64,000 bases of DNA. It comes from Paludibacterium paludis (GTDB lineage Bacteria > Pseudomonadota > Gammaproteobacteria > Burkholderiales > Chromobacteriaceae). The position numbers and the translations under genes are program-made. Each line of letters begins with the position of its first letter. The stretch's first letter is position 1. The DNA is taken from assembly GCF_018802605.1 (NCBI RefSeq), contig NZ_CP069161.1:496001-560000 (forward strand), read 5' to 3'. Below, piece after piece: positions 2,156 through 62,304 of this stretch. The notes under the pieces were generated by a model. That model worked only from the letters and a program-made list of their open reading frames with translations. It ran no database searches and was not told where the DNA came from.

Positions 2156-3360
2156 AGCGGTTGCGTATCGCCCATCTGATCGATCTGGCCAACGTAGGCG
2201 GTGTGGAGACGCTTTACGCGGAGTTTTTGCGTGCTTCACCTCCTGACGGATGGCACGTCGAACATCTGACCGTGGCGGACAGTCCGGAGCCAGCGGCCCG
2301 TTTCTCCGACATCGGTCAGCATGGCCGCTACGTCTCCTGGCGCTGCCTGGGGCCTCTGTCTGTGCCGCGCCGGCCGTATGCGTTGCGGGCATGGAACCGT
2401 TTGCGCCTCATCCGGCAATTCCGGCCGGATCTTGTGGTGGCGTGGAACCAGTTCACTGACTTCCGGCTTGATCCGGTGGAATTGGGGTGTCCGCTGGTGT
2501 ACTATGAGCATGGCATGAGCTGGTATACCCACCATCCACGTCAGTTGCAAGGATTCTTCCCCCATGTCGCCTCGGCGATTGCCGTGTCCAGAGCCGGCGC
2601 CCGCATGCTGCAGCTCAAGCATCGGGTACCGTTCGATGTGACGGTATGCCCGAACCCGGTTCGTCCCGGATTGTCCGGCCAGAGCCATGTGCCGCGCGGT
2701 TTGCCGAGCGGGCGCCCTCTCCGGCTAGGATTCGCCGGCCGGCTTGTTCCCCTGAAAGCGGTTGGGTTGCTGATACTCGCGATCGAAGAGCTGCGCAGCC
2801 GGGGCATGCATGCTGAGGCCCGCATCGCAGGAGAAGGGGCCGAACGTCCCGTACTGGAAGCGCTTGTCAAACGGCTTGGTCTGGAGGATCGGGTGATATT
2901 CCTGGGTTTGGTCGACGATATGTCGGGGTTCTATCGTTCGATCGATCTTTTTGTGATGACTTCCATGCACGAAACCATGCCTTTGGTGTGCCTTGAGGCC
3001 ATGGCACATGGTTTGCCTGTTCTGTGCCCGACAGTCGACGGCTTTCCCGAAGTGGTCGATGATGGCAAGACTGGAGCCTGCCTGGCTCCACGTTGGCCGA
3101 TTGACGACTATGCGCGTGCCACGGGCGCCAGTACCGCTTTTGCTCGGGAGGTTTACGACCCCGACCTTGATTCGCTCGTGCCGACTCGGCTGATGCATCC
3201 TGCCGATATGGCCGACGCGCTCCAGTTCATGACATCGACCGAAGAGCGTTACCGGGAACTGAGCGCCGGGGCACTCGCCAAAGCGGCTGTTGCCCACCGC
3301 TTCGACGACTGGCTGGCCAGGTTTTACGCGCGGCTTGCCGCCGCGGCCGGCAAGCCGTGA
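2152..3360 (+). CDS. GT4-type glycosyltransferase
   Basis: A 402-residue glycosyltransferase beginning MKRLRIAHLIDLANVGGVET, with the GGVE loop typical of GT4 enzymes. The second domain opens with LRLGFAGRLVPLKAV (about residue 195) and carries MHETMPLVCLEAMAHGLPV around residue 280, the E-x7-E-like donor-binding region. The start ATG 2152 overlaps the previous stop (ATGA), indicating translational coupling; an upstream in-frame ATG at 2107 lies inside the previous gene and is less likely. The 3' end overlaps the convergent deacetylase-like gene by 37 nt. It is likely part of LPS core or capsule assembly with its neighbours; the substrate is not determinable. Confidence 0.85.
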   Translation: MKRLRIAHLIDLANVGGVETLYAEFLRASPPDGWHVEHLTVADSPEPAARFSDIGQHGRYVSWRCLGPLSVPRRPYALRAWNRLRLIRQFRPDLVVAWNQFTDFRLDPVELGCPLVYYEHGMSWYTHHPRQLQGFFPHVASAIAVSRAGARMLQLKHRVPFDVTVCPNPVRPGLSGQSHVPRGLPSGRPLRLGFAGRLVPLKAVGLLILAIEELRSRGMHAEARIAGEGAERPVLEALVKRLGLEDRVIFLGLVDDMSGFYRSIDLFVMTSMHETMPLVCLEAMAHGLPVLCPTVDGFPEVVDDGKTGACLAPRWPIDDYARATGASTAFAREVYDPDLDSLVPTRLMHPADMADALQFMTSTEERYRELSAGALAKAAVAHRFDDWLARFYARLAAAAGKP

Positions 3361-4313
3361 CGTTCGACATGGCCAGCGTGGTATTCCGCGAGCGTCGCTC
3401 CTGAATAATCTCGCGCCAGATGCGTGAACAGGGCTTCAAGGTCCCGGTAGAGCTCTTCGATATCCGCCTCCGTCCTGAATGTCGGGCTGCCGCCAGGCAT
3501 GAATTCCGACGAGTGCAGCATGAACTCCAGGTAGTCGGACCCGCCAGCGCCAACCCGGTCGGCGAGTGTGATCATTTCCCTGGCGTTACCTCCACGCGGA
3601 CGCAACCAGCTCATGGAGCGGGGGCGCGACTTGCCGCGCAGGCGATTCACCGTGTCCTTGAGTCCTTGCACGATAGATGAATATTTCGGACGTGTTGTCA
3701 TAGGAATTTCCAGCAGTGGCAGCGAGCCGGCTTGGCCGATATCACATTCGTCGAGCCAGTAAGCCGACTCCGGGAATTCTCTGTAGTCGGTTCCTCCCCG
3801 ACCCTGACGGGCTCCTCTTGTCTGGCTCCAGTCGACATGCGGAGTCACCGAGCAGTCCACCTTGTACCCGTGTTCCACCAGCAGCTTGGCATAGCGGCCG
3901 TCGAAGGCCCAGCGTCCGGCGCGGTGGCTGACCATCTTGACCCCGAACGTATCCTCCAGAAGATGGGTCATGGTGGCTATCTTGGCGCGCATGACTTCCA
4001 GCGGGTATTCGATCAGGTAAGCTTTGTCCTCGCCACCGTGGTCGGTTTCAGGATGCAGAGGAGGACTGTTCCAGGCATGCAGATGCATGCCGATCTCCGC
4101 TGTTTCCCGGGAGATCACGTCCCGGGCGAAAGCCTGGTAGACTGGATCGATCGCCATTTCGTGGTTGGTCAGATAGCACGGCTTGAAGCCGAAGCGTTCG
4201 CACAATGTCTGGAAGCGCTCGAGAAAACCGGCGTTGCGGGTAGTCAGCGTGGCTGCATTGCCCCACAGGTCGTCGCCTTCCGTGTCGATGGTGATAAGAA
4301 AGTGCTTTTTCAT
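3324..4313 (-). CDS. Polysaccharide deacetylase-like protein (NodB-homology type, WalW-like)
   Basis: A 329-residue protein starting MKKHFLITIDTEGDDLWG. The early ITIDTEGD, followed by EIGMHLHAWNSPPL near residue 95 and MVSHRAGRWAFDG near 150, matches the layout of NodB-fold carbohydrate esterases: an Asp pair early, a paired-His metal motif, and an Arg/Asp motif later. Its position among glycosyltransferases suggests deacetylation or another trimming step on a surface glycan. It has no signal peptide, so it probably acts in the cytoplasm. The start overlaps the stop of the preceding minus-strand gene by ATGA. Exact chemistry is inferred; some members of this family are uncharacterised. Confidence 0.7.
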   Translation of the reverse strand: MKKHFLITIDTEGDDLWGNAATLTTRNAGFLERFQTLCERFGFKPCYLTNHEMAIDPVYQAFARDVISRETAEIGMHLHAWNSPPLHPETDHGGEDKAYLIEYPLEVMRAKIATMTHLLEDTFGVKMVSHRAGRWAFDGRYAKLLVEHGYKVDCSVTPHVDWSQTRGARQGRGGTDYREFPESAYWLDECDIGQAGSLPLLEIPMTTRPKYSSIVQGLKDTVNRLRGKSRPRSMSWLRPRGGNAREMITLADRVGAGGSDYLEFMLHSSEFMPGGSPTFRTEADIEELYRDLEALFTHLARDYSGATLAEYHAGHVERHGLPAAAASRA

Positions 4314-23895: not shown

Positions 23896-24052
23896 TCGGG
23901 CGGGCGTGTCGGTCTGACACGATAGTTCTCCGGTCAAAACGCTATTGTTGTTCCTTACTCTTAGCATAAACTTCAAGCATGAAACATTCGCAAGTGCAGG
24001 TGGGCGCTTCCGCTGCTCTCGTGCCATTGCCCGATCACTTAGGAGGGGAAAC

Positions 24053-24799
24053 ATGGCTAAGCGATGCGCTGGATCAATTGTCGCCATCTGCCTTGCTCAC
24101 GCATGTTTTGCCGAGGAAGTGGTTATTTCCATTCAGTATCGTGATAAGCCGCCCTATAGCTACAGTAAGGAAGGACGGCCTGCCGGTTTTCTGCTTGAGC
24201 GCACCGTGGAGATTTTACGCCGCGCAGCCGTGCCAGCCAAATATGAGCAAATCCCGGTAAAACGCATTGTTCAGGATATTAAAGACAACAAGAAAACAGT
24301 TTGTTCTCCGGGATGGTATAAAATTCCCGATCGCGAGGTCTTCGCCCAATTTACGCTGGCAATTCATCAGGATAAACCACAGATTGTATTGGCCAATGTG
24401 CAAGTGGCGAAACAGATTCAATCTATGAGTACGTTTAAATCTTTATTAAACAATAAAGATTACCGTCTTGGTATTGTGTCCGGCGTATCCTATGGTCCTG
24501 ATCTGGATGGCATGATTAATAATGCGACAACCACTGCGATGGATTCCAATGTGACGCCGGATGGGCTTGCGCGCATGATTGCCATGCATCGTGCCGATTA
24601 TATGATTATCGATGTGGAAGATTACAATTTTTTGCTGCAAAAAAAGGAGATAGATACCGATAGATTGGTCGTATTGAAATTCAAGGATATTCCTGAAGGG
24701 CTTAGGCGTTACATTATGTGTAGCAAAAATGTCAGTGCAGATATCATGCAGCGGATCAATCGATCCATACAAACGGTAGTTCCCGGTTTGTCTCCGTAG
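24053..24799 (+). CDS. Periplasmic solute-binding protein, family 3-like
   Basis: A 248-residue exported protein: signal peptide MAKRCAGSIVAICLAHACFA, then EEVVISIQYRDKPPYSY, the standard opening of SBP_bac_3-type amino-acid-binding or sensor-like proteins. GYxxE-type ligand motifs are weak. The C-terminal part has LRRYIMCSKNVSADIMQRIN. ATG 24053 is chosen because AGGAGG is at 24041-24046; the frame stays open upstream to 23945. The gene is clearly AT-richer than its neighbours, suggesting transfer from another lineage. No permease or ATPase gene is adjacent, so it may be an orphan binding protein or a sensor component. Confidence 0.7.
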   Translation: MAKRCAGSIVAICLAHACFAEEVVISIQYRDKPPYSYSKEGRPAGFLLERTVEILRRAAVPAKYEQIPVKRIVQDIKDNKKTVCSPGWYKIPDREVFAQFTLAIHQDKPQIVLANVQVAKQIQSMSTFKSLLNNKDYRLGIVSGVSYGPDLDGMINNATTTAMDSNVTPDGLARMIAMHRADYMIIDVEDYNFLLQKKEIDTDRLVVLKFKDIPEGLRRYIMCSKNVSADIMQRINRSIQTVVPGLSP

Positions 24800-25226
24800 C
24801 TGAATTTAAAAAAACACGATTTTTCCATCCGTTAGCCAGCGAGATGGAAATGAGTTAGGCTTGAATCACACGATTTCCTGTTGTTTTTCAATATTCTTCC
24901 TGTTTTTTTCCTCTCTATTCAATCCCCATGGTCGGCAGTTTCATACGTTTCCGTTGTTCCGAGCGATATTTCCTTTGTCGTTACCGTTGAGTTGCTGCAG
25001 TACGCGTTTTGCTTGTGCTCTCCATGGATACATCATTCCCGTAATGGGGGGTATGTCAACATGGCGTGGGTAGCCATGGGTTTTTAGGTTAAATAACTTG
25101 CGTTTGATAAAAATATAGCTCAAATGTTTTAATTATATAAATGGTATAAAAGTCGCGATATTGATCTGTCCACAATGACAGTTTTGATAGATAAGTCGTG
25201 TTTTTATATTGACGGTGATTTTTTCT

Positions 25227-25242
25227 GTTGATTAGTATCAAC
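25227..25242. promoter_or_regulatory. Perfect palindrome, candidate operator
   Basis: GTTGAT-TAGT-ATCAAC: two perfect 6-bp arms around a 4-bp spacer, 116 nt upstream of the 22-codon ORF and without a T-tract. This is the size of a dimeric repressor site. No regulator gene lies in the cluster, so the binding protein is unknown. Confidence 0.35.
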
Positions 25243-25343
25243 CGGCAGCCTGGGTTTGCAGTCATTTTTCTGAGTGATACTGTTTGCCGTATATCGGTTA
25301 TATTTTCTGCTGCCACGTTGCTATTTTTCGTTTTTAATCAGTT

Positions 25344-25353
25344 AAAGGAGGTG
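25344..25353 (+). promoter_or_regulatory. Near-perfect Shine-Dalgarno of the small peptide ORF
   Basis: AAAGGAGGTG matches nearly the whole anti-Shine-Dalgarno sequence. The GGAGG core (25347-25351) is 6 nt from GTG 25358, the optimal distance. No other gene in this part of the window has such a strong site. It decides the start of the small ORF and implies high translation. Confidence 0.75.
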
Positions 25354-25357
25354 TTTT

Positions 25358-25426
25358 GTGAAAGTCAGGAAGATTGTCGTGAAAATCAACGATAAAGAAT
25401 TCACCTGCGGAAACTATAACAAGTAA
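25358..25426 (+). CDS. Candidate RiPP precursor peptide (22 residues)
   Basis: A 22-codon ORF from GTG 25358 to TAA 25424-25426. The peptide starts MKVRKIVVKI, a basic/hydrophobic alternating half resembling short RiPP leaders such as those of methanobactin precursors. It ends NDKEFTCGNYNK, with one Cys followed by Gly, Asn, Tyr and Asn. It lies 49 nt before the first of two MNIO-type enzymes and shares strand with a MATE exporter. A very strong ribosome site upstream, against almost none for the enzyme, fits a peptide made in excess of its modifying enzyme. It is too short for ordinary gene callers. That it is translated and modified is inference; the site and the context are what I see. Confidence 0.6.
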   Translation: MKVRKIVVKINDKEFTCGNYNK

Positions 25427-25435
25427 TCGAGGTGC

Positions 25436-25522
25436 ATGACGGGCAGCCAAGGCCTGGCGGACCATCGCACAATACATGAACATGAAAATAGCGTGCAGCT
25501 ACCATGCCGGATTTATGGATAA
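25436..25522 (+). other. Second short ORF overlapping the MNIO start (28 codons)
   Basis: ATG 25436 to TAA 25522 encodes 28 residues with one Cys (ending LPCRIYG). It begins 9 nt after the 22-codon ORF and runs over the start of the first MNIO gene in another frame. GAGG is only 3 nt upstream, which is too close for good initiation. It could be a coupling ORF that lets ribosomes reach the poorly equipped MNIO start, or chance. Confidence 0.2.
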
Positions 25523-26576
25523 CAGGACGATCCGCGTTCCCGATGTCAGTCTCATGGAAGTGGGCCTGGCTGCCTATAAACATGTATTTTCAGAAGCTAA
25601 ACATCTTGATATCGAGTATCGCGGCGATATCTCCTTGCATGTCGCTCGTTCACCGATCACAGAGGCGGCCGTTTTTCAGAATGCCTTCATTCAGGAGAAG
25701 CTTGCCGGTATCGGGAAGGACGCCCGAGTGGTCAGCATCGGATTTCATCTGTGCGGCGACCGGCGCGACAATATCGGGGCTTACGGGTTTTCCTCGCATT
25801 ACCGCTGCTCGGCCGGCGCGGAAAATCGCGCGACCGCCTTTATCGCCAGGGTGACCGCCGCCACGGGAAAACCCGTCTGGATCGAGAACGCCAATTTCTA
25901 TTCGGCATCGCCGGCCGAAATCGTCGCCAACTGGAAAAGCATTGTCCGTATCGCGGAGCATTCCGGCGCGAGCCTGATCATCGACCTCTCCCATTTGATC
26001 ATCGACTGTCTGAACAATGGTGTATCGCCCGATATTTGCCTCGGGATGATCCCGTGGGACAGCGTGGCCGAGTTGCACCTGTCGGGCATCGTCGAAGGCC
26101 GGGATGGCGCCTTGCACGATGGGCACGGTAGTCCGGTCGATCACCGAGTGTGGGCGATGCTCGACACGCTGATGCGCTACGGACTGGTCGGCGGCGACAT
26201 CTACCTCAACATCGAGCACAGCGACTCGGCGTGGCTTGCCGATCCCGTGGCTTATCGCGCCGATTTTGCCCGGCTCGCTTCACGGCTTGCCGCTCCCTCA
26301 CGCACGAACGGTGGCAAGAATGCGCTTGGTTATGCGCGCGCCTACCTGAAAACCCTGCTGAAAAACGCCATCGTCAACTTCGACGAGGTCGTGGAGTTGT
26401 CCGGTATTTCGGAGCGGGAGTTGCTCGATGGTTGGCTGAGCCACGTCGACGCCACGAAAAAACGTCTCGCGCTGTCGACCGAGGAGATGGATTCGCTGAT
26501 CCGCCGCGAATCGATCGTGTTCACTGATACTTTCATCGACTATATCGAGAGCCGCTTCAATGAAAACAGGGATTAA
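25476..26576 (+). CDS. MNIO-type (DUF692) iron oxidase with C-terminal extension
   Basis: A 366-residue protein whose first ~275 residues read as a DUF692/MNIO TIM barrel. These are multinuclear non-haem iron enzymes that rewrite Cys, Asp or Asn residues of RiPP precursors. Metal-site motifs in order are SLHVARSP (His), SIGFHLCGDR (His), WIENANFY (Glu, Asn), LIIDLSHLII (Asp, His), AELHLSGI (His), HDGHGSPVDHRVW (His/Asp) and LNIEHSD (Glu). The last ~90 residues form an extra helical domain (YARAYLKTLLKNAIVNFDEV) that may hold leader-peptide binding or partner function. The ATG at 25476 or 25482 lacks a good ribosome site, suggesting low or coupled translation. It overlaps the next MNIO gene by 17 nt. 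Confidence 0.75.
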   Translation: MNMKIACSYHAGFMDNRTIRVPDVSLMEVGLAAYKHVFSEAKHLDIEYRGDISLHVARSPITEAAVFQNAFIQEKLAGIGKDARVVSIGFHLCGDRRDNIGAYGFSSHYRCSAGAENRATAFIARVTAATGKPVWIENANFYSASPAEIVANWKSIVRIAEHSGASLIIDLSHLIIDCLNNGVSPDICLGMIPWDSVAELHLSGIVEGRDGALHDGHGSPVDHRVWAMLDTLMRYGLVGGDIYLNIEHSDSAWLADPVAYRADFARLASRLAAPSRTNGGKNALGYARAYLKTLLKNAIVNFDEVVELSGISERELLDGWLSHVDATKKRLALSTEEMDSLIRRESIVFTDTFIDYIESRFNENRD

Positions 26577-27351
26577 TTGGTCCGGCCAGCGTGACCTGCC
26601 CACCGTCGCATCCTTGCTTGGCAGCGGCGAAGTGGATTTCGTCGAGATCGTGATCGACAACTTCCTGCCATGCGACCCAGGCTCGCTCCTGTCCATCCTC
26701 GATGGCACGCCCTGCGCTTTTCACATCATGAACTCCCGCTTTCTGCATGCCCGTCCGGGGGCGTTGCGCGATATGGCCAAGCGTGTGCGCGAGCTCGACG
26801 CCGCGCTGTCGCCCTTGTATGTCTCGGATCATCTGGGCAAGTTTTATTTCCGGGGACAGGCTTTGCCACAGATGCTCGAGGTCGACTACGTCCGGGACGG
26901 GGCATGGTGCCGGGACAAGCTGGCGCTCTGGCAGGATTTGCTTGGCCGGCAGATCTTCATCGAGAATTATCCGTCGATCATTCGGCAGCCGGCCGCCCAA
27001 GCGGCGTTTTTTGCGCGATTGATCGAGGCGACGCAATGCGGATTACTGTTCGACATATCCAATGCCGTGATCGCCGAGATCAACACGGGAGAATCCGCCG
27101 GCGACTGGTCGGCTCTGTGGCGAAATACCCGGCATTTTCATATCGGCGGATTTGCTCCGGCGGCATTTTCCGTGCGATGCGCGGTCGATACCCATGATCG
27201 GGGCATCGATGAGCGCGCCTTGCTTCTGGCGGAAGTGGTGCTTGGCCGCGTGAAGAACGTGACGGTCAGCGTTGAACGGGATGACCGCTTCGATGCGGAG
27301 GAATGGCTTGCCGATGTGCGCAGAATCGGAGCACTCCGCGGTGATCTCTGA
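26560..27351 (+). CDS. Second MNIO-type (DUF692) enzyme, MbnB-like layout
   Basis: A 263-residue TIM-barrel protein, more canonical DUF692 than its neighbour. It has GINWSGQRDL at the start, FHIMNSRFL, YVSDHLGKFYF (about residue 87), FIENYPSII (Glu/Asn, about 132), GLLFDISNAV (Asp/Asn, about 163), HFHIGGF (His, about 190), VDTHDRGIDERALL (Asp/His, about 208) and VTVSVERDD (Glu). These match the His/Asp/Glu/Asn positions that hold two or three iron ions in MbnB, TglH and BufB-type enzymes. Overlaps with both neighbouring genes (17 nt and 38 nt) show a single operon. It probably acts on the same small peptide, alone or after the first enzyme. Confidence 0.8.
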   Translation: MKTGINWSGQRDLPTVASLLGSGEVDFVEIVIDNFLPCDPGSLLSILDGTPCAFHIMNSRFLHARPGALRDMAKRVRELDAALSPLYVSDHLGKFYFRGQALPQMLEVDYVRDGAWCRDKLALWQDLLGRQIFIENYPSIIRQPAAQAAFFARLIEATQCGLLFDISNAVIAEINTGESAGDWSALWRNTRHFHIGGFAPAAFSVRCAVDTHDRGIDERALLLAEVVLGRVKNVTVSVERDDRFDAEEWLADVRRIGALRGDL

Positions 27352-27880
27352 GGTGTGCCGCGCGCTTGCCGATCCCGCCGCTCCCGTGCCGGTGTGTGGC
27401 CGGGCGAGGGGGTATCTGGCCCTTCTTGCCTGCGCCTGGCGCGATCCTGTTGTCGCCGCTGTACCCGGTATCTCGGACCTGATGGATCTTGCCGACGAGA
27501 AGGCATGGGCCGGATTTCTCGGCTGGTGCCGCCTGCGCCGCGCAATGCTCGACTGGCGCTTTGGCGTATCGTTGCTCGCGTATCTTCTCTCGGAATACCG
27601 GGCGGTGCCCGCTTCGCTCGCCGAGCATCTGTTGCTGTTTGCCTGTTCGCAGTGGACCTACTCCGACAAGGGGCCGCATCACGGCATTCTGATCGCGTCC
27701 TCGCTGGATTCGCGCCGGCTGTGCGCCGCGGAAAAGAGTACCGATGCCAGGTTGGAGCGCGAGGTTTTCGTGTTGAGCCTCGACTCGGATGTGGAGGTGA
27801 CGGGCGGATTCGCTTACGCCACTTACCGGCGGGATGACGATCTGCCGAGCGTATTGCAGCGAGACTGGACTGCATTATGA
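27314..27880 (+). CDS. Unrecognised protein, probable MNIO partner
   Basis: A 188-residue cytoplasmic protein from ATG 27314 (MCAESEHSAVISEVCRALAD); an earlier ATG at 27272 would overlap the MNIO gene further. Visible elements are a helical N-terminal half (GYLALLACAWRDPVVAAVPG), SLLAYLLSEYRAVPASLAEH in the middle, then ACSQWTYSDKGPHHGILIAS, and a strand-rich C-terminus with an acidic stretch. MNIO enzymes nearly always need a partner encoded next door (for example MbnC or DUF2063 proteins) that presents the precursor, and the size and position fit. I do not recognise a family by sequence. Its stop overlaps the MATE start by ATGA. Confidence 0.6.
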   Translation: MCAESEHSAVISEVCRALADPAAPVPVCGRARGYLALLACAWRDPVVAAVPGISDLMDLADEKAWAGFLGWCRLRRAMLDWRFGVSLLAYLLSEYRAVPASLAEHLLLFACSQWTYSDKGPHHGILIASSLDSRRLCAAEKSTDARLEREVFVLSLDSDVEVTGGFAYATYRRDDDLPSVLQRDWTAL

Positions 27881-29121
27881 ATCACCCGGCCATACTCCGT
27901 CAGGCATTGACGATCTCTGCCTCAAGGCTGATCTCGCTGAGCATGGCCAGCACGGATCTGATGGTGCTTGGCCGGATGGCCTGGCGCGATGCCTCCGATT
28001 TTGCCCTGGCCAGTCAATGGGCGCAGGTGTTCGTTGTTCTGGCTGTGACCCTCAACGTCGGAGTGGTGTTGGTCTACCGCGCCGGGCGGGTCGTGGATTC
28101 GCGGCTTGCCGGCCGGATCGCGGCCTATGCGCTGGCGGTTGGCGGGGCGCTGTGCCTGGCGAGCCTTGCGCTGCCCTCCATGGCGGGTTTTTCCAGTTCG
28201 GCGCGCGCCATCTATCTTGTGCTGGCGGCGGGCCTTGTTCCCATGACCCTGCACATCGCCTGCTGCCATCTGCTGGAGGCGGAGGGCTTCGCTCCGCTGG
28301 TACTTTGCGCGACAGCCGCCCTGGCGTGCCTGAATGGGGTGCTGGATGTTGTGTTCGTGGCATGCGACGCCGTTCCGTCCGGTATCGCTGTCGCGTTGTC
28401 CACGACCGTGGTTCGGGTTGCCGGTATGGTGCTCGGCTGCGCCCTGGTCGCGTCCAGGCTGGGAATCCGGTGCAAGCCTGACTGGTCGGCCGACACCTCG
28501 AAAGCCCTGTTCGGCTACGGCCGAAGCGAGGCCGCCACCGGACTGGCATTCACCGGTGGCCTGGCGCTGTTGTGCACCGCGCTGGCCGCGCAATCCGGCC
28601 AGGCATCGTTCGCCCGTTTTGGCATCGCGCTCAACTTCATGAATACCGTGTCCATCCTATTCACGGGATTTTCGTTGTCGCTGACCCAGTACTTCGCCAA
28701 GCGGATGCCGCCCTGGCAAGACCGCGTTGCCGGTGTGCTGGCTCTGTCGCTGGTCTACATCGTTGCCTGGATCGCGGTTCTGCTGCCGTCGTGCGGGCTC
28801 GTCGCTCGCTGGTATCTGGGCCGTGCCGACGGCGCGCTGGCCGGTTTATTCGCGGCAGGACTGGTGGTCGTTATGCTCGACGGTATGGCGCAGATCCTGA
28901 TCGGCCTGCTGCGTCTTGCCGGTCAGGTCGCCGTGCCGCCGATGTTCCGGTTGTCGATGGTGGTGTTTGGTATCCCGCTGTCTTTGCTCGGTTTCGATGG
29001 TGAGAATTTCGGCTGGGTCATGGCCGGGCTGGCGTTCGGCAATGCTGTCGCCACGTGTCTGGCTTTCTCCGCCTTGTATGTCACCTGTCGGCGTACCGGC
29101 GCAGACGAGCAGGGCCAGTGA
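27877..29121 (+). CDS. MATE-family efflux transporter
   Basis: A 414-residue membrane protein with about 12 hydrophobic segments and the MATE layout: a start of MNHPAILRQALTISASRLIS, an Asp in the first helix (ASTDLMVLGR), and repeat-like second-half segments such as GIALNFMNTVSILFTGFSLS. MATE pumps export small molecules with Na+ or H+ influx; methanobactin clusters carry one (MbnM) for product export, so peptide export is the likely job here. The start overlaps the partner gene by ATGA. The 3' end runs 276 nt antisense into the convergent MFS gene, which is unusual. Confidence 0.85.
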   Translation: MNHPAILRQALTISASRLISLSMASTDLMVLGRMAWRDASDFALASQWAQVFVVLAVTLNVGVVLVYRAGRVVDSRLAGRIAAYALAVGGALCLASLALPSMAGFSSSARAIYLVLAAGLVPMTLHIACCHLLEAEGFAPLVLCATAALACLNGVLDVVFVACDAVPSGIAVALSTTVVRVAGMVLGCALVASRLGIRCKPDWSADTSKALFGYGRSEAATGLAFTGGLALLCTALAAQSGQASFARFGIALNFMNTVSILFTGFSLSLTQYFAKRMPPWQDRVAGVLALSLVYIVAWIAVLLPSCGLVARWYLGRADGALAGLFAAGLVVVMLDGMAQILIGLLRLAGQVAVPPMFRLSMVVFGIPLSLLGFDGENFGWVMAGLAFGNAVATCLAFSALYVTCRRTGADEQGQ

Positions 29122-59017: not shown

Positions 59018-60937
59018 TTACCAGGTGCCTTGCCATTTCACCCAGAGCGTCCGTCCGGGCTCGTTCACTTTGCCGGTGCTTTCGTACCCCGGAATGGGCA
59101 CCCCGCCTTTGCTCACGGCTTCGGCGTAGACGCGGTTGAACACATTGTCCACTCCCGCCGTGAGTTTGTTATGACGATCGATCTGCCAGCCGGCGTTGAG
59201 CGAGAGAATCCCGAAACCGGCGGTTTCTCCGTTGTCGAGACCGACGATACCGCCCTGGCCGCTGGCGATCCGGTCTTGACGGGCGGCGAGGCGCCAGAGC
59301 GCTCCGGCCGACCAGGCGCCGTTGTCGTAGCCGACACCGAGTGTGCCCTGCAACGGCGTTGTCTGCGCCAGCGGACGGCGGTCGCTGAGGTTGTCGGCAT
59401 GTACCCAGGCGAGGGTGCCGGTCGCCGTCCAGGACGGTAGGAATTCCCAGCTGATGTCGGCCTCAAGCCCGTGGTGCCAGGCATTCACATTGCGATAGCC
59501 GACGCCGGTTTGCCTCAGGATGTAATTGTCGATCCTGCCGGCGAATGCCGACAGCGAGGCTTTGACATCCTTCGCTTGGTAGAGGGCGCCGATATCCAGC
59601 TGGCGCAGTTTTTCCGGGTGCTGCCGGGCGGCGATGCCGTCCTCCCAGTAATCCGGCGCGCGCATCGCCTGGCCGAATCCGGCGTAGCCTGTCCAGGCAC
59701 CCGAGCGGTGTTCGTAACGCGCGAAACCGGATTCCAGTTCGTAATCGCGCACGCGGCCTGCTGCGGACTGCGGTGTGCTGTCATAGGTGGTGCGGGTCAG
59801 GTCGCGCCGGAGGCCGGAAACCAGAGTGCCGCTGTCGCCAAGCGGCAGGCGGCCTTCCGCGAAGACGCCGGTGTTGTCGCTCGCCTGATCGGACTGGCTC
59901 ACGCGATTCCGTATCCATTCATGCCGGTCGCGCAGGGTATCGACACCGACCGTCAGCGACAGATCGCCCAATTGCAGCTCGGCGGCGGCCTTGCCGGTAT
60001 CGACTTCGCGGACCGGATTCATGGCGGCGCGCTTGGCGGCGGGTGTCCAGGGTCTGAGCGTGTAATTGTCCATCACGTGGTCGACATTGCTGTGGCCGAT
60101 GTTCAGGCGCACGGCCGTCAGCCAGTCGGCAAGGTTGCGGCGTTCGGCTTTCAGCGACCAGGCCTCGCGGTCGAAGCGGCTGCCGTCCATACCCCGGTCG
60201 GCGTAGGCGGCCTGGCCGCGGCTTTTGTCGACGGTCAGTTCGATCAGCGTTGCGCTGTCCGGTGTGAACCCGGCGATCAGCGTCTGGCTTTCGCGCCGGT
60301 AGGACGAATGCACCTTGCGTCCTGCGCCGTCACGGTAGTCGCCGCCATGGTTACGCGTGCCGAGCACGCGCAGATAACCGTACCGGGCGCCGAATGCGGC
60401 GTCGGCATAGACTTCGTTGCGGTCGCCGCTGCCGGCCATCAGTCCGCCGCTCAAGCGCGCGCCCGCTTCGTCGAAAGGCGCGGTGCGGCGTTCGAAGTCC
60501 ACGGCGCCGGCGATCAGCGGCGCGCCCATCGTCACGCTTTGCGGTCCCTTGACCACGGTCACCTTGTCCCAGGCATCGGGAAAGAGATAGGCGGTTGGAG
60601 GATCCATGCGGCCTCCGCAGCCGCCATAAAGGAAGGCGCCGTCGGCCTGAATGGCCAGACGCGAGCCGCCCAGACCGCGCAGCACCGGGTCGCCCGATTC
60701 GCCGCCCTTGCGCGCGACGCTGAAGCCGGGGATGCTTTTGAGCAGTCCGGCGCCGTCGGCGGCGGGCACCGGCTGGCGCGGCGCGCGCGGGTCGGTTTCC
60801 ACTCTGAGTGGCTGGCGGCTGCGCACCGCGGTGACCACCACTTCGTCGCCGATGTACACCGGACGAAGATCGGCGGCGAAGGCCTGCGTGACGGCGAGCA
60901 CCGCCGGAAGGGGAATGAAGCGGAGAAGATCTCTCAT
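59018..60937 (-). CDS. TonB-dependent copper receptor (OprC-like)
   Basis: A 639-residue outer-membrane receptor. The signal peptide ends at QAFA, followed by the plug domain (VVVTAVRSRQ, GLLKSIPGFSVARKG near 65-80). The loop FLYGGCGGRMDPPTAYLF (about 104-121), with Cys and Met, is the copper-receptor signature seen in OprC/NosA. The barrel ends WVKWQGTW with an aromatic last residue. It should import copper, possibly on a small ligand, with TonB energy. The RegBA pair starts divergently 92 nt away, hinting at redox or copper control; no TonB/ExbBD genes are in the window. Confidence 0.88.
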   Translation of the reverse strand: MRDLLRFIPLPAVLAVTQAFAADLRPVYIGDEVVVTAVRSRQPLRVETDPRAPRQPVPAADGAGLLKSIPGFSVARKGGESGDPVLRGLGGSRLAIQADGAFLYGGCGGRMDPPTAYLFPDAWDKVTVVKGPQSVTMGAPLIAGAVDFERRTAPFDEAGARLSGGLMAGSGDRNEVYADAAFGARYGYLRVLGTRNHGGDYRDGAGRKVHSSYRRESQTLIAGFTPDSATLIELTVDKSRGQAAYADRGMDGSRFDREAWSLKAERRNLADWLTAVRLNIGHSNVDHVMDNYTLRPWTPAAKRAAMNPVREVDTGKAAAELQLGDLSLTVGVDTLRDRHEWIRNRVSQSDQASDNTGVFAEGRLPLGDSGTLVSGLRRDLTRTTYDSTPQSAAGRVRDYELESGFARYEHRSGAWTGYAGFGQAMRAPDYWEDGIAARQHPEKLRQLDIGALYQAKDVKASLSAFAGRIDNYILRQTGVGYRNVNAWHHGLEADISWEFLPSWTATGTLAWVHADNLSDRRPLAQTTPLQGTLGVGYDNGAWSAGALWRLAARQDRIASGQGGIVGLDNGETAGFGILSLNAGWQIDRHNKLTAGVDNVFNRVYAEAVSKGGVPIPGYESTGKVNEPGRTLWVKWQGTW

Positions 60938-61029
60938 TGTTATGTCATATAGGTGTTTTGGACCGGCTGAATGCTAGAAGAATCATCCGACGACGGGAAT
61001 GTGACAAAGTGTCGCAGCGCGAACTCGCC
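60938..61029. promoter_or_regulatory. Divergent promoter region between copper receptor and regBA
   Basis: A 92-nt gap that must carry two promoters. It contains GACA-AAG-TGTC, a small inverted repeat near 61000-61012, next to GTGTCGC, which weakly resembles the GNCGC half-site reported for RegA. A site shared by the receptor and the sensor genes is a reasonable guess. Confidence 0.3.
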
Positions 61030-62304
61030 ATGGAATCTGTTACAGTGGCGGACATGGCTGTGATGTCACCGTTTTCCCATGACCTGCCGCGCGCGGCGGC
61101 GGGGCTTGCGCAACTGCGTTGGCTGACGCTGTGCTCGGGCGCGCTGCTGTGCGTTGCGGGCGGCGCGGCGGGCGTGGCGCTGCCGTATCCCCTGCTGGCC
61201 CAGGCGCTCCTGACCCTGACGGCCGCCAACCTCGTTCTCGCCCGCTGCGGCGCGCGTTCGCGCACGCCGGCCCTGTGGCTCGGAGCGGGGCTGGCCGCCG
61301 ACGTGATCTGCCTGACCGAAGTCCTCGCGTTCACCGGCGGGGCGGCCAACCCCCTGGCGTCCCTTTATCTTCCGCCCGTACTGTTCGCGGCGCTGCTGTT
61401 GCCCGCCGCCTTTGCCTGGACGCTGGCGTTCGCCACCTTGCTGGCCTATGCCGCCCTGTTCCGCTGGCACCTGCCCTGGCCGGCCGCCGCAGGGGATGCC
61501 GCGTACGCCGTGTCATTACACCTGACCGGCATGTGGGTCACCTTCTCCTTGTCCGCGCTGCTGATGACCGGTTTCGTGTCATGGCTGGCGCGCCGACTCG
61601 CGTCCCGCGAAGCGATGCTGACGGCCGCGCGGGAGGCCCTGTCGCGGGACGAGCAGCTGCTCGCGGTGGGGATGCAGGCGGCCGGCGCGGCGCATGCCCT
61701 GTCCACCCCCCTCAATACCCTGACCCTTCTGGTCGATGAAATGGCGGAGTTCCGGGCCGGGGACGCGGAGCTCGCCGCCGATTTGCAGACGATGAAAGAA
61801 CAGCTCGCCGGTTGCCGCCAGGCCTTGTTCGCCCTGAAGGACGGGGCGGAGTCCGGCGTGCGCGAGGCGCCGCTGTTCGCCATGTTGGCCGACCGGCTCG
61901 AAGGCTGGCGCGCATTGCGGCCGGATGTGGTTCTGATCTGGACGCCCCCGGATGTCCCGGATCCGGTCGTCGGTCTGGACAGCGCGTTCTGGCCGGCGTT
62001 CTTCAATCTGGTCAACAATGCGGCGGAAGCCGGCGGCGGGGAGGTCGAGGTCCGCGCATCGCTCGCTGCCGGGGGATTGACGCTCGATGTGATTAACAGG
62101 AAGGGCAGTCTGAGCGATGAGCAACTGGCGCGTGCCGGCCTGACACCGCTGGTGTCGGGCAAACCCGCCGGCATGGGGCTTGGCGTGCTGCTCAGTCATG
62201 CCACGCTCGCGCGCCTTGGCGGCCGCCTTGAGCTCGTGAATCGTCTGGGCGGAGGCGTCCACGCCAGGATCGTCCTGCCGCTGAACCGCCGGAGAGTGCC
62301 ATGA
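61030..62304 (+). CDS. regB: RegB/PrrB/ActS-like redox sensor histidine kinase
   Basis: A roughly 424-residue kinase with six N-terminal membrane segments (about residues 25-185). The ubiquinone-interacting motif FTGGAANPLASLYL (GGxxNP, about 100) is the RegB hallmark. The H-box is AHALSTPLNTLTL with the phospho-accepting His. The N-box is FNLVNNAAEAG. The nucleotide lid is GMGLGVLLSHATLARLGGRL. Two oddities: the G1 box, normally DxGxG, reads VINRKGSLSDE, and I see no redox Cys at the usual linker position. The start is ATG 61030; ATG 61054 is possible. The stop overlaps the regA start. Confidence 0.85.
   Translation: MESVTVADMAVMSPFSHDLPRAAAGLAQLRWLTLCSGALLCVAGGAAGVALPYPLLAQALLTLTAANLVLARCGARSRTPALWLGAGLAADVICLTEVLAFTGGAANPLASLYLPPVLFAALLLPAAFAWTLAFATLLAYAALFRWHLPWPAAAGDAAYAVSLHLTGMWVTFSLSALLMTGFVSWLARRLASREAMLTAAREALSRDEQLLAVGMQAAGAAHALSTPLNTLTLLVDEMAEFRAGDAELAADLQTMKEQLAGCRQALFALKDGAESGVREAPLFAMLADRLEGWRALRPDVVLIWTPPDVPDPVVGLDSAFWPAFFNLVNNAAEAGGGEVEVRASLAAGGLTLDVINRKGSLSDEQLARAGLTPLVSGKPAGMGLGVLLSHATLARLGGRLELVNRLGGGVHARIVLPLNRRRVP

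Follow-up and report, generated by a model that had tools for sequence, protein, structure and literature searches.

Five genes lying one after another on the forward strand of a 64,000-nucleotide stretch of the Paludibacterium paludis genome, here called the window, very probably form a mov operon, that is, a RiPP operon of the Group V methanobactin-like type. Gene order, homology, conserved ligand positions and conserved peptide residues all support this reading, and the operon is genuine, judged from its DNA apparently intact, and a new copy in another bacterium of a kind described earlier. A first-pass annotation had seen here a RiPP operon akin to methanobactin (precursor, two MNIO enzymes, partner and MATE exporter), and this stands; its description as an undescribed system and a new RiPP does not, the literature on Group V operons and on MovA and MovX (passages in PMC3621798, PMC12452194 and PMC11002830) ruling that out.

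The passage of PMC3621798 (2013) on Group V methanobactin operons describes those of Vibrio caribbenthicus and Photorhabdus luminescens, with a one-Cys precursor, a gene weakly similar to DUF692 between mbnA and mbnB, and a dissimilar MATE, without a nearby TonB receptor. The operon in the window has the same short one-Cys precursor, the same DUF692-like gene between precursor and mbnB, and likewise an MbnB, a partner and a MATE without a nearby TonB receptor; the P. luminescens operon was compared by description. A second DUF692-like gene, a one-Cys substrate and the lack of a nearby TonB receptor had been thought unusual, and all three are given there for Group V. The same had been said of two MNIO enzymes in one operon, but Table 1 of PMC12452194 has MovA and MovX with a C-terminal amide made from Asn and two MNIO enzymes on one peptide, and a summary in PMC11002830 gives the cluster one MbnBC-like MNIO enzyme and one that cleaves at Asn, both acting on MovA. 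MovX is also called an amidating enzyme in PMC12636437.

The precursor peptide and its surroundings

An ORF check of the window confirmed the five same-strand ORFs and the overlaps of 17, 38 and 4 nt between the four larger genes, as first annotated (Table 1). The first ORF begins with GTG and encodes the 22-residue peptide MKVRKIVVKINDKEFTCGNYNK, preceded by TTAAAGGAGGTGTTTT. The near-perfect Shine-Dalgarno reported for this 22-codon ORF held up when the whole window was scanned for AAGGAGG, which stands 4 to 16 nt upstream of 5 of the 5436 ATG, GTG and TTG triplets on both strands, movA among them.

Table 1. Features assigned to the putative mov operon, in window positions
Feature	Position	Strand	Evidence
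movA, precursor peptide, 22 aa, GTG start	25358..25426	+	NF050127; match to MbnA 7dz9_E
movX, MNIO with C-terminal extension of ~90 residues	25476..26576	+	PF05114, 68.7 bits
movB, MbnB-type MNIO	26560..27351	+	7dz9 MbnB, E 7.9e-76
movC, MbnC-type partner (leader-binding, RRE-like)	27314..27880	+	7dz9_D MbnC, E 3.2e-14
MATE-type exporter	27877..29121	+	tblastn to L034 exporter; model vs PDB
Possible weak sigma-70-like promoter, TTGACG-18-TAGTAT, 9/12	25209..25238	+	Consensus scan only

With the curated NCBIfam model NF050127 ("methanobactin-like peptide MovA") it scores 44.0 bits, above the cut-off of 33, over model positions 1-23 of 23. Among the sequences of solved structures it matches two MbnA chains of 7dz9 (7dz9_E among them) and, at E values up to 10, nothing else. 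7dz9 is the crystallized MbnABC complex of V. caribbenthicus, whose MbnA has the sequence that PMC8888699 gives for the peptide of this species. MovA has one Cys in its 22 residues, in a Thr16-Cys17 pair, and a penultimate Asn21; its core reads TCGNYNK as against TCGAFNK in V. caribbenthicus, where the peptide has 23 residues and the host is another bacterium. An ending of the form TC-x-x-Y-N occurs in the 64-kb window once on the forward strand and not at all on the reverse strand.

The same ending, followed by one or two residues, closes a short upstream ORF at 8 of the 8 related loci with a readable upstream stretch; this count covers the eight named below, a ninth (L043) being without an upstream stretch. 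When these stretches were shuffled with base composition kept, the ending turned up in 0 to 6 of 2000 shuffles per stretch. A chance short ORF is therefore ruled out, since the curated model is passed, the 7dz9_E chain is matched and the ending recurs at all readable related loci against the shuffles. All 10 peptides compared (the window, the eight related loci and V. caribbenthicus) share Thr16, Cys17 and Asn21, the peptide of L040 having two residues after the Asn, not one. Taken together, the loci show which precursor residues are constrained, namely Thr-Cys for MovB and Asn for MovX.

The GC content is 0.362 in the movA ORF, 0.384 in the 558-nt stretch upstream of it, 0.571 to 0.645 in the four larger genes and 0.617 in the whole window. 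Promoter-like sites (5 between positions 24700 and 29300, against a shuffle mean of 2.0, sd 1.3) and terminator-like sites (8, against 5.6, sd 1.6) are both somewhat above their shuffles. By profile, the neighbors are an enolase-superfamily gene and a solute-binding protein gene upstream and MFS and LysR genes downstream, and these two nearest genes on either side include no TonB receptor. Immediately before the operon, the gene for the family 3 solute-binding protein (23945-24799) is itself AT-rich (GC 0.456); it passes PF00497 with 26.9 bits (cut-off 26.4) and is TIGR02285-like, below that model's cut-off.

The MNIO enzymes, the partner and the exporter

Both enzyme genes clear the PF05114 cut-off of 25 bits (68.7 for movX and 85.7 for movB), so the call of two MNIO enzymes was sound. 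In MovX, H55, H91, E137, D170, H173, H201, D215, H217 and E247 are identical in all 7 rows of the alignment, which holds the window, L034-L038 and L040, or 7 of the 10 loci recognized as holding movX or a piece of it; L039 (split open frame) and L041 and L043/L006 (contig ends) were left out. The MovX model (pLDDT 84.9) matches structures of MbnB and TglH, and residues 283-365 are modeled, within the whole protein, as helices and two short strands; a passage in PMC12452194 gives MovX a winged helix-turn-helix domain. The first MNIO gene stands where movX does in the described clusters, and its product is taken to be MovX, known MovX having been compared by description.

The second enzyme is 49% identical to the MbnB of 7dz9 over 254 aligned residues and keeps 10 of the 10 iron-ligand and catalytic residues examined, including the tri-iron ligands and the catalytic Asp, that PMC8888699 names for VcMbnB. 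The metal ligands predicted for both MNIO proteins are thus present, as an invariant His/Glu/Asp set of candidate ligands in MovX and as the known residues in MovB, and together with the recurring short ORF in homologous clusters, which had also been named as a check, this favors a real RiPP operon. In a tree of nine MovB/MbnB proteins, the window, Moraxella, Xenorhabdus and V. caribbenthicus share one side with support of 97/95, and three other rows sit on long branches; the movB alignment has six rows (window and L034-L038, without L039, L040, L041 and L043), and the L043 protein, from genome G005, was added in the tree.

The homology of MovB and MovC to MbnB and MbnC, in sequence and fold, is shared with canonical methanobactin systems (MbnABC; Methylosinus, Rugamonas), and a TonB copper receptor lies some 30 kb away, so that one might read the operon as making a Group I-IV methanobactin, a copper chelator with two heterocycles that is re-imported by a TonB receptor. 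We hold this to be extremely unlikely. Canonical clusters have two or more core Cys, usually a TonB importer (according to the passage in PMC3621798) and no MovX, whereas here the peptide has one Cys, movB is separated from the precursor by a second MNIO gene, profiles identify no TonB receptor among the two nearest genes on either side, and MovB falls with the Group V enzyme in the tree. Canonical membership was rejected on the same single core Cys and on TIGR04159, which MovB matches with 238.5 bits against a cut-off of 325.

Bufferins and oxazolins (BufABC, HvfABC) share the MNIO superfamily PF05114 with the operon, but they have signal-peptide precursors and DUF2063 partners according to PMC12452194. 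Membership there was rejected too, as the first and second MNIO proteins reach 60.5 and 87.7 bits against the BufB cut-off of 310 and 48.4 and 42.6 bits against the HvfB cut-off of 360. PF09836 (DUF2063) has no match in the five operon proteins at E values up to 10; this lack had been listed as unusual, yet it is expected because the partner is MbnC-like. A third MNIO gene of the host lies far from the operon (G000:C1:1214804-1215586, reverse strand; PF05114, 319.6 bits).

That partner, a protein of about 190 residues formerly called unrecognized, is by its sequence match to 7dz9_D an MbnC homologue, and scores 34.4 bits with TIGR04160, short of the cut-off of 185; its alignment comprises the window, L034, L035, L039 and L036. 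The exporter gave no Pfam match to its own sequence. By tblastn it is 29% identical to the exporter of L034 and 27% to that of L035, the exporters of all four loci submitted (L034, L035, L036 and L038, which with the window form its five-row alignment) pass MatE PF01554, and its model (pLDDT 83.7) finds MATE structures as its best matches in the PDB, in agreement with the original call of a MATE pump.

Related loci and distribution

A pattern-based scan of a species-genome collection for MovX-type proteins returned eight loci: Xenorhabdus beddingii, X. lircayensis, Chitinimonas sp. BJB300, and MAGs of Moraxella, Chromatiales, Chlamydiales, Bdellovibrionaceae and Legionella. The scan is not exhaustive because exact peptide patterns were required. 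movB follows movX in 7 of the 8 fetched loci, being cut by the contig end in L040; in the eighth, the Legionella MAG (L041), the contig stops inside movX. The movC match is below an E value of 1e-20 in L034, L035 and L039 and weak in L038 (0.004); it was not found in L036 or L037, and the ORF at the movC position of these two was judged by eye. The exporter of L039 was matched by tblastn, and no MATE ORF was seen right after the mov genes of L037. In the X. lircayensis locus (L039), the assembled sequence splits both the movX frame (435-1525) and the MATE frame (2833-4053), and movA and movC remain open.

NF050127 sees mainly close relatives, since its cut-off was reached by 2 of the 8 related peptides (42.9 and 33.4 bits); five of the others scored 31.3, 17.2, 15.0, 10.1 and 7.0 bits and one had no match. 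The precursor ORFs of the Chromatiales, Chitinimonas and Chlamydiales loci run to 23 to 56 (depending on the start chosen), 50 and 52 residues. An acetyltransferase (GNAT) gene was found downstream by Pfam in all three loci submitted (L036, 4745-5290; L037, 8486-8998; L038, 9694-10275). The L037 precursor carries a Gly-Gly pair ahead of its C-terminal part.

Within the sampled genomes, full-length matches at MovX level were found in 2 of 399 from the order (the host itself and G057, whose contig is taken to be that of L037 and was counted once) and in 1 of 369 from the class (the host itself). The other MovX-profile matches listed, with E values up to 1e-10, are taken as other MNIO enzymes because they cover only about profile positions 70-240. 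In samples of 399 order and 369 class genomes, NF050127 matched the host genome alone. At this similarity the cluster is absent from the five other genus genomes searched, among which G005 has a 35% relative. In the literature searched, no paper joined methanobactin and Chromobacterium. With the window, an apparently intact mov cluster is added to a lineage in which, by this sampling, clusters of the kind are rare.

The nearest kin of the cluster presumably belong to other orders, and this, with the patchy presence within the genus, suggests that the cluster reached its host by horizontal transfer. Carriage on plasmids was rejected, as a tblastn search of a plasmid collection with MovX returned a single record, with 26.5% identity across 48% of the query. 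Patchiness and the AT-rich stretch upstream could also be signs of a cluster that is silent in this strain, a reading we consider highly unlikely given five open ORFs, preserved ligand positions and the strong Shine-Dalgarno. In G005 (L043), a movX fragment at the contig end is followed by a divergent movB, 33-35% identical to that of the window, and then by ORFs resembling movC and a MATE gene on visual inspection, which showed no acetyltransferase ORF at this locus.

Proposed pathway and copper context

By analogy with work on relatives, the MbnC-like MovC would hold the leader of MovA while MovB, as a multi-iron enzyme, would carry out a four-electron oxidation of Thr16-Cys17 to an oxazolone-thioamide or its thiooxazole isomer; strong homology to the solved 7dz9 complex points to these two steps. 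MovX would then cut the N-C-alpha bond of Asn21, so that Asn-Lys is lost and Tyr20 becomes a C-terminal amide, as the place of the gene, the MNIO fold of the enzyme and the conserved Asn suggest. The leader is probably removed before export by a protease encoded outside the operon, whose genes include no candidate, and the MATE pump would export the peptide. The order of the two modification steps, which we likewise take from relatives, is reportedly given in the primary mov paper, published by Chioti and colleagues in J Am Chem Soc in 2024.

The product of the Thr-Cys step is in dispute. A passage of PMC12668002 that names MovA, bufferin 1 and oxazolin holds that one or more published structures could be misassigned between oxazolone-thioamide and thiooxazole, and puts the absorption of MovA near 305 nm, unlike methanobactins; as reported in PMC8888699, Cys18 of the 23-residue V. 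caribbenthicus peptide coordinates an iron of the active site and gets modified, and the modified peptide absorbs near 270 nm and shows a 300-360 nm shoulder. With Asn-Tyr ahead of the cleaved Asn, the peptide in the window is a useful natural variant for the study of MovX and also for deciding between the two products.

The most likely role of the mov peptide, from what is described for relatives, would be metal (copper) binding. A mov-type peptide could instead have an antimicrobial or signaling job, with the MATE pump serving export or self-protection, and the single modifiable Cys and the finding of relatives in Xenorhabdus, which are insect-associated bacteria, fit such a job. It is also in keeping with PMC3621798, which in its Group V passage doubts that these products chelate copper in the usual methanobactin way. 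We regard this as possible though doubtful, since ITC in PMC8888699 showed Cu2+ binding by the V. caribbenthicus peptide after modification and none by the unmodified form.

A bolder proposal, which we think unlikely as a whole, has two parts: the peptide amide would carry copper for the host within a circuit that includes the distant TonB copper receptor, and, in addition, the Chitinimonas, Chromatiales MAG and Chlamydiales MAG loci, with mostly longer precursors and an acetyltransferase, would form a second mov lineage with a further modified product. The receptor gene (59018-60937, reverse strand), ~30 kb from the operon, passes TIGR01778 for TonB-dependent copper receptors with 563.7 bits (cut-off 472.45). 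Divergent from it lies a gene for a RegB/PrrB-like sensor kinase (60937-62304, forward strand), with 161 bits against a cut-off of 350.
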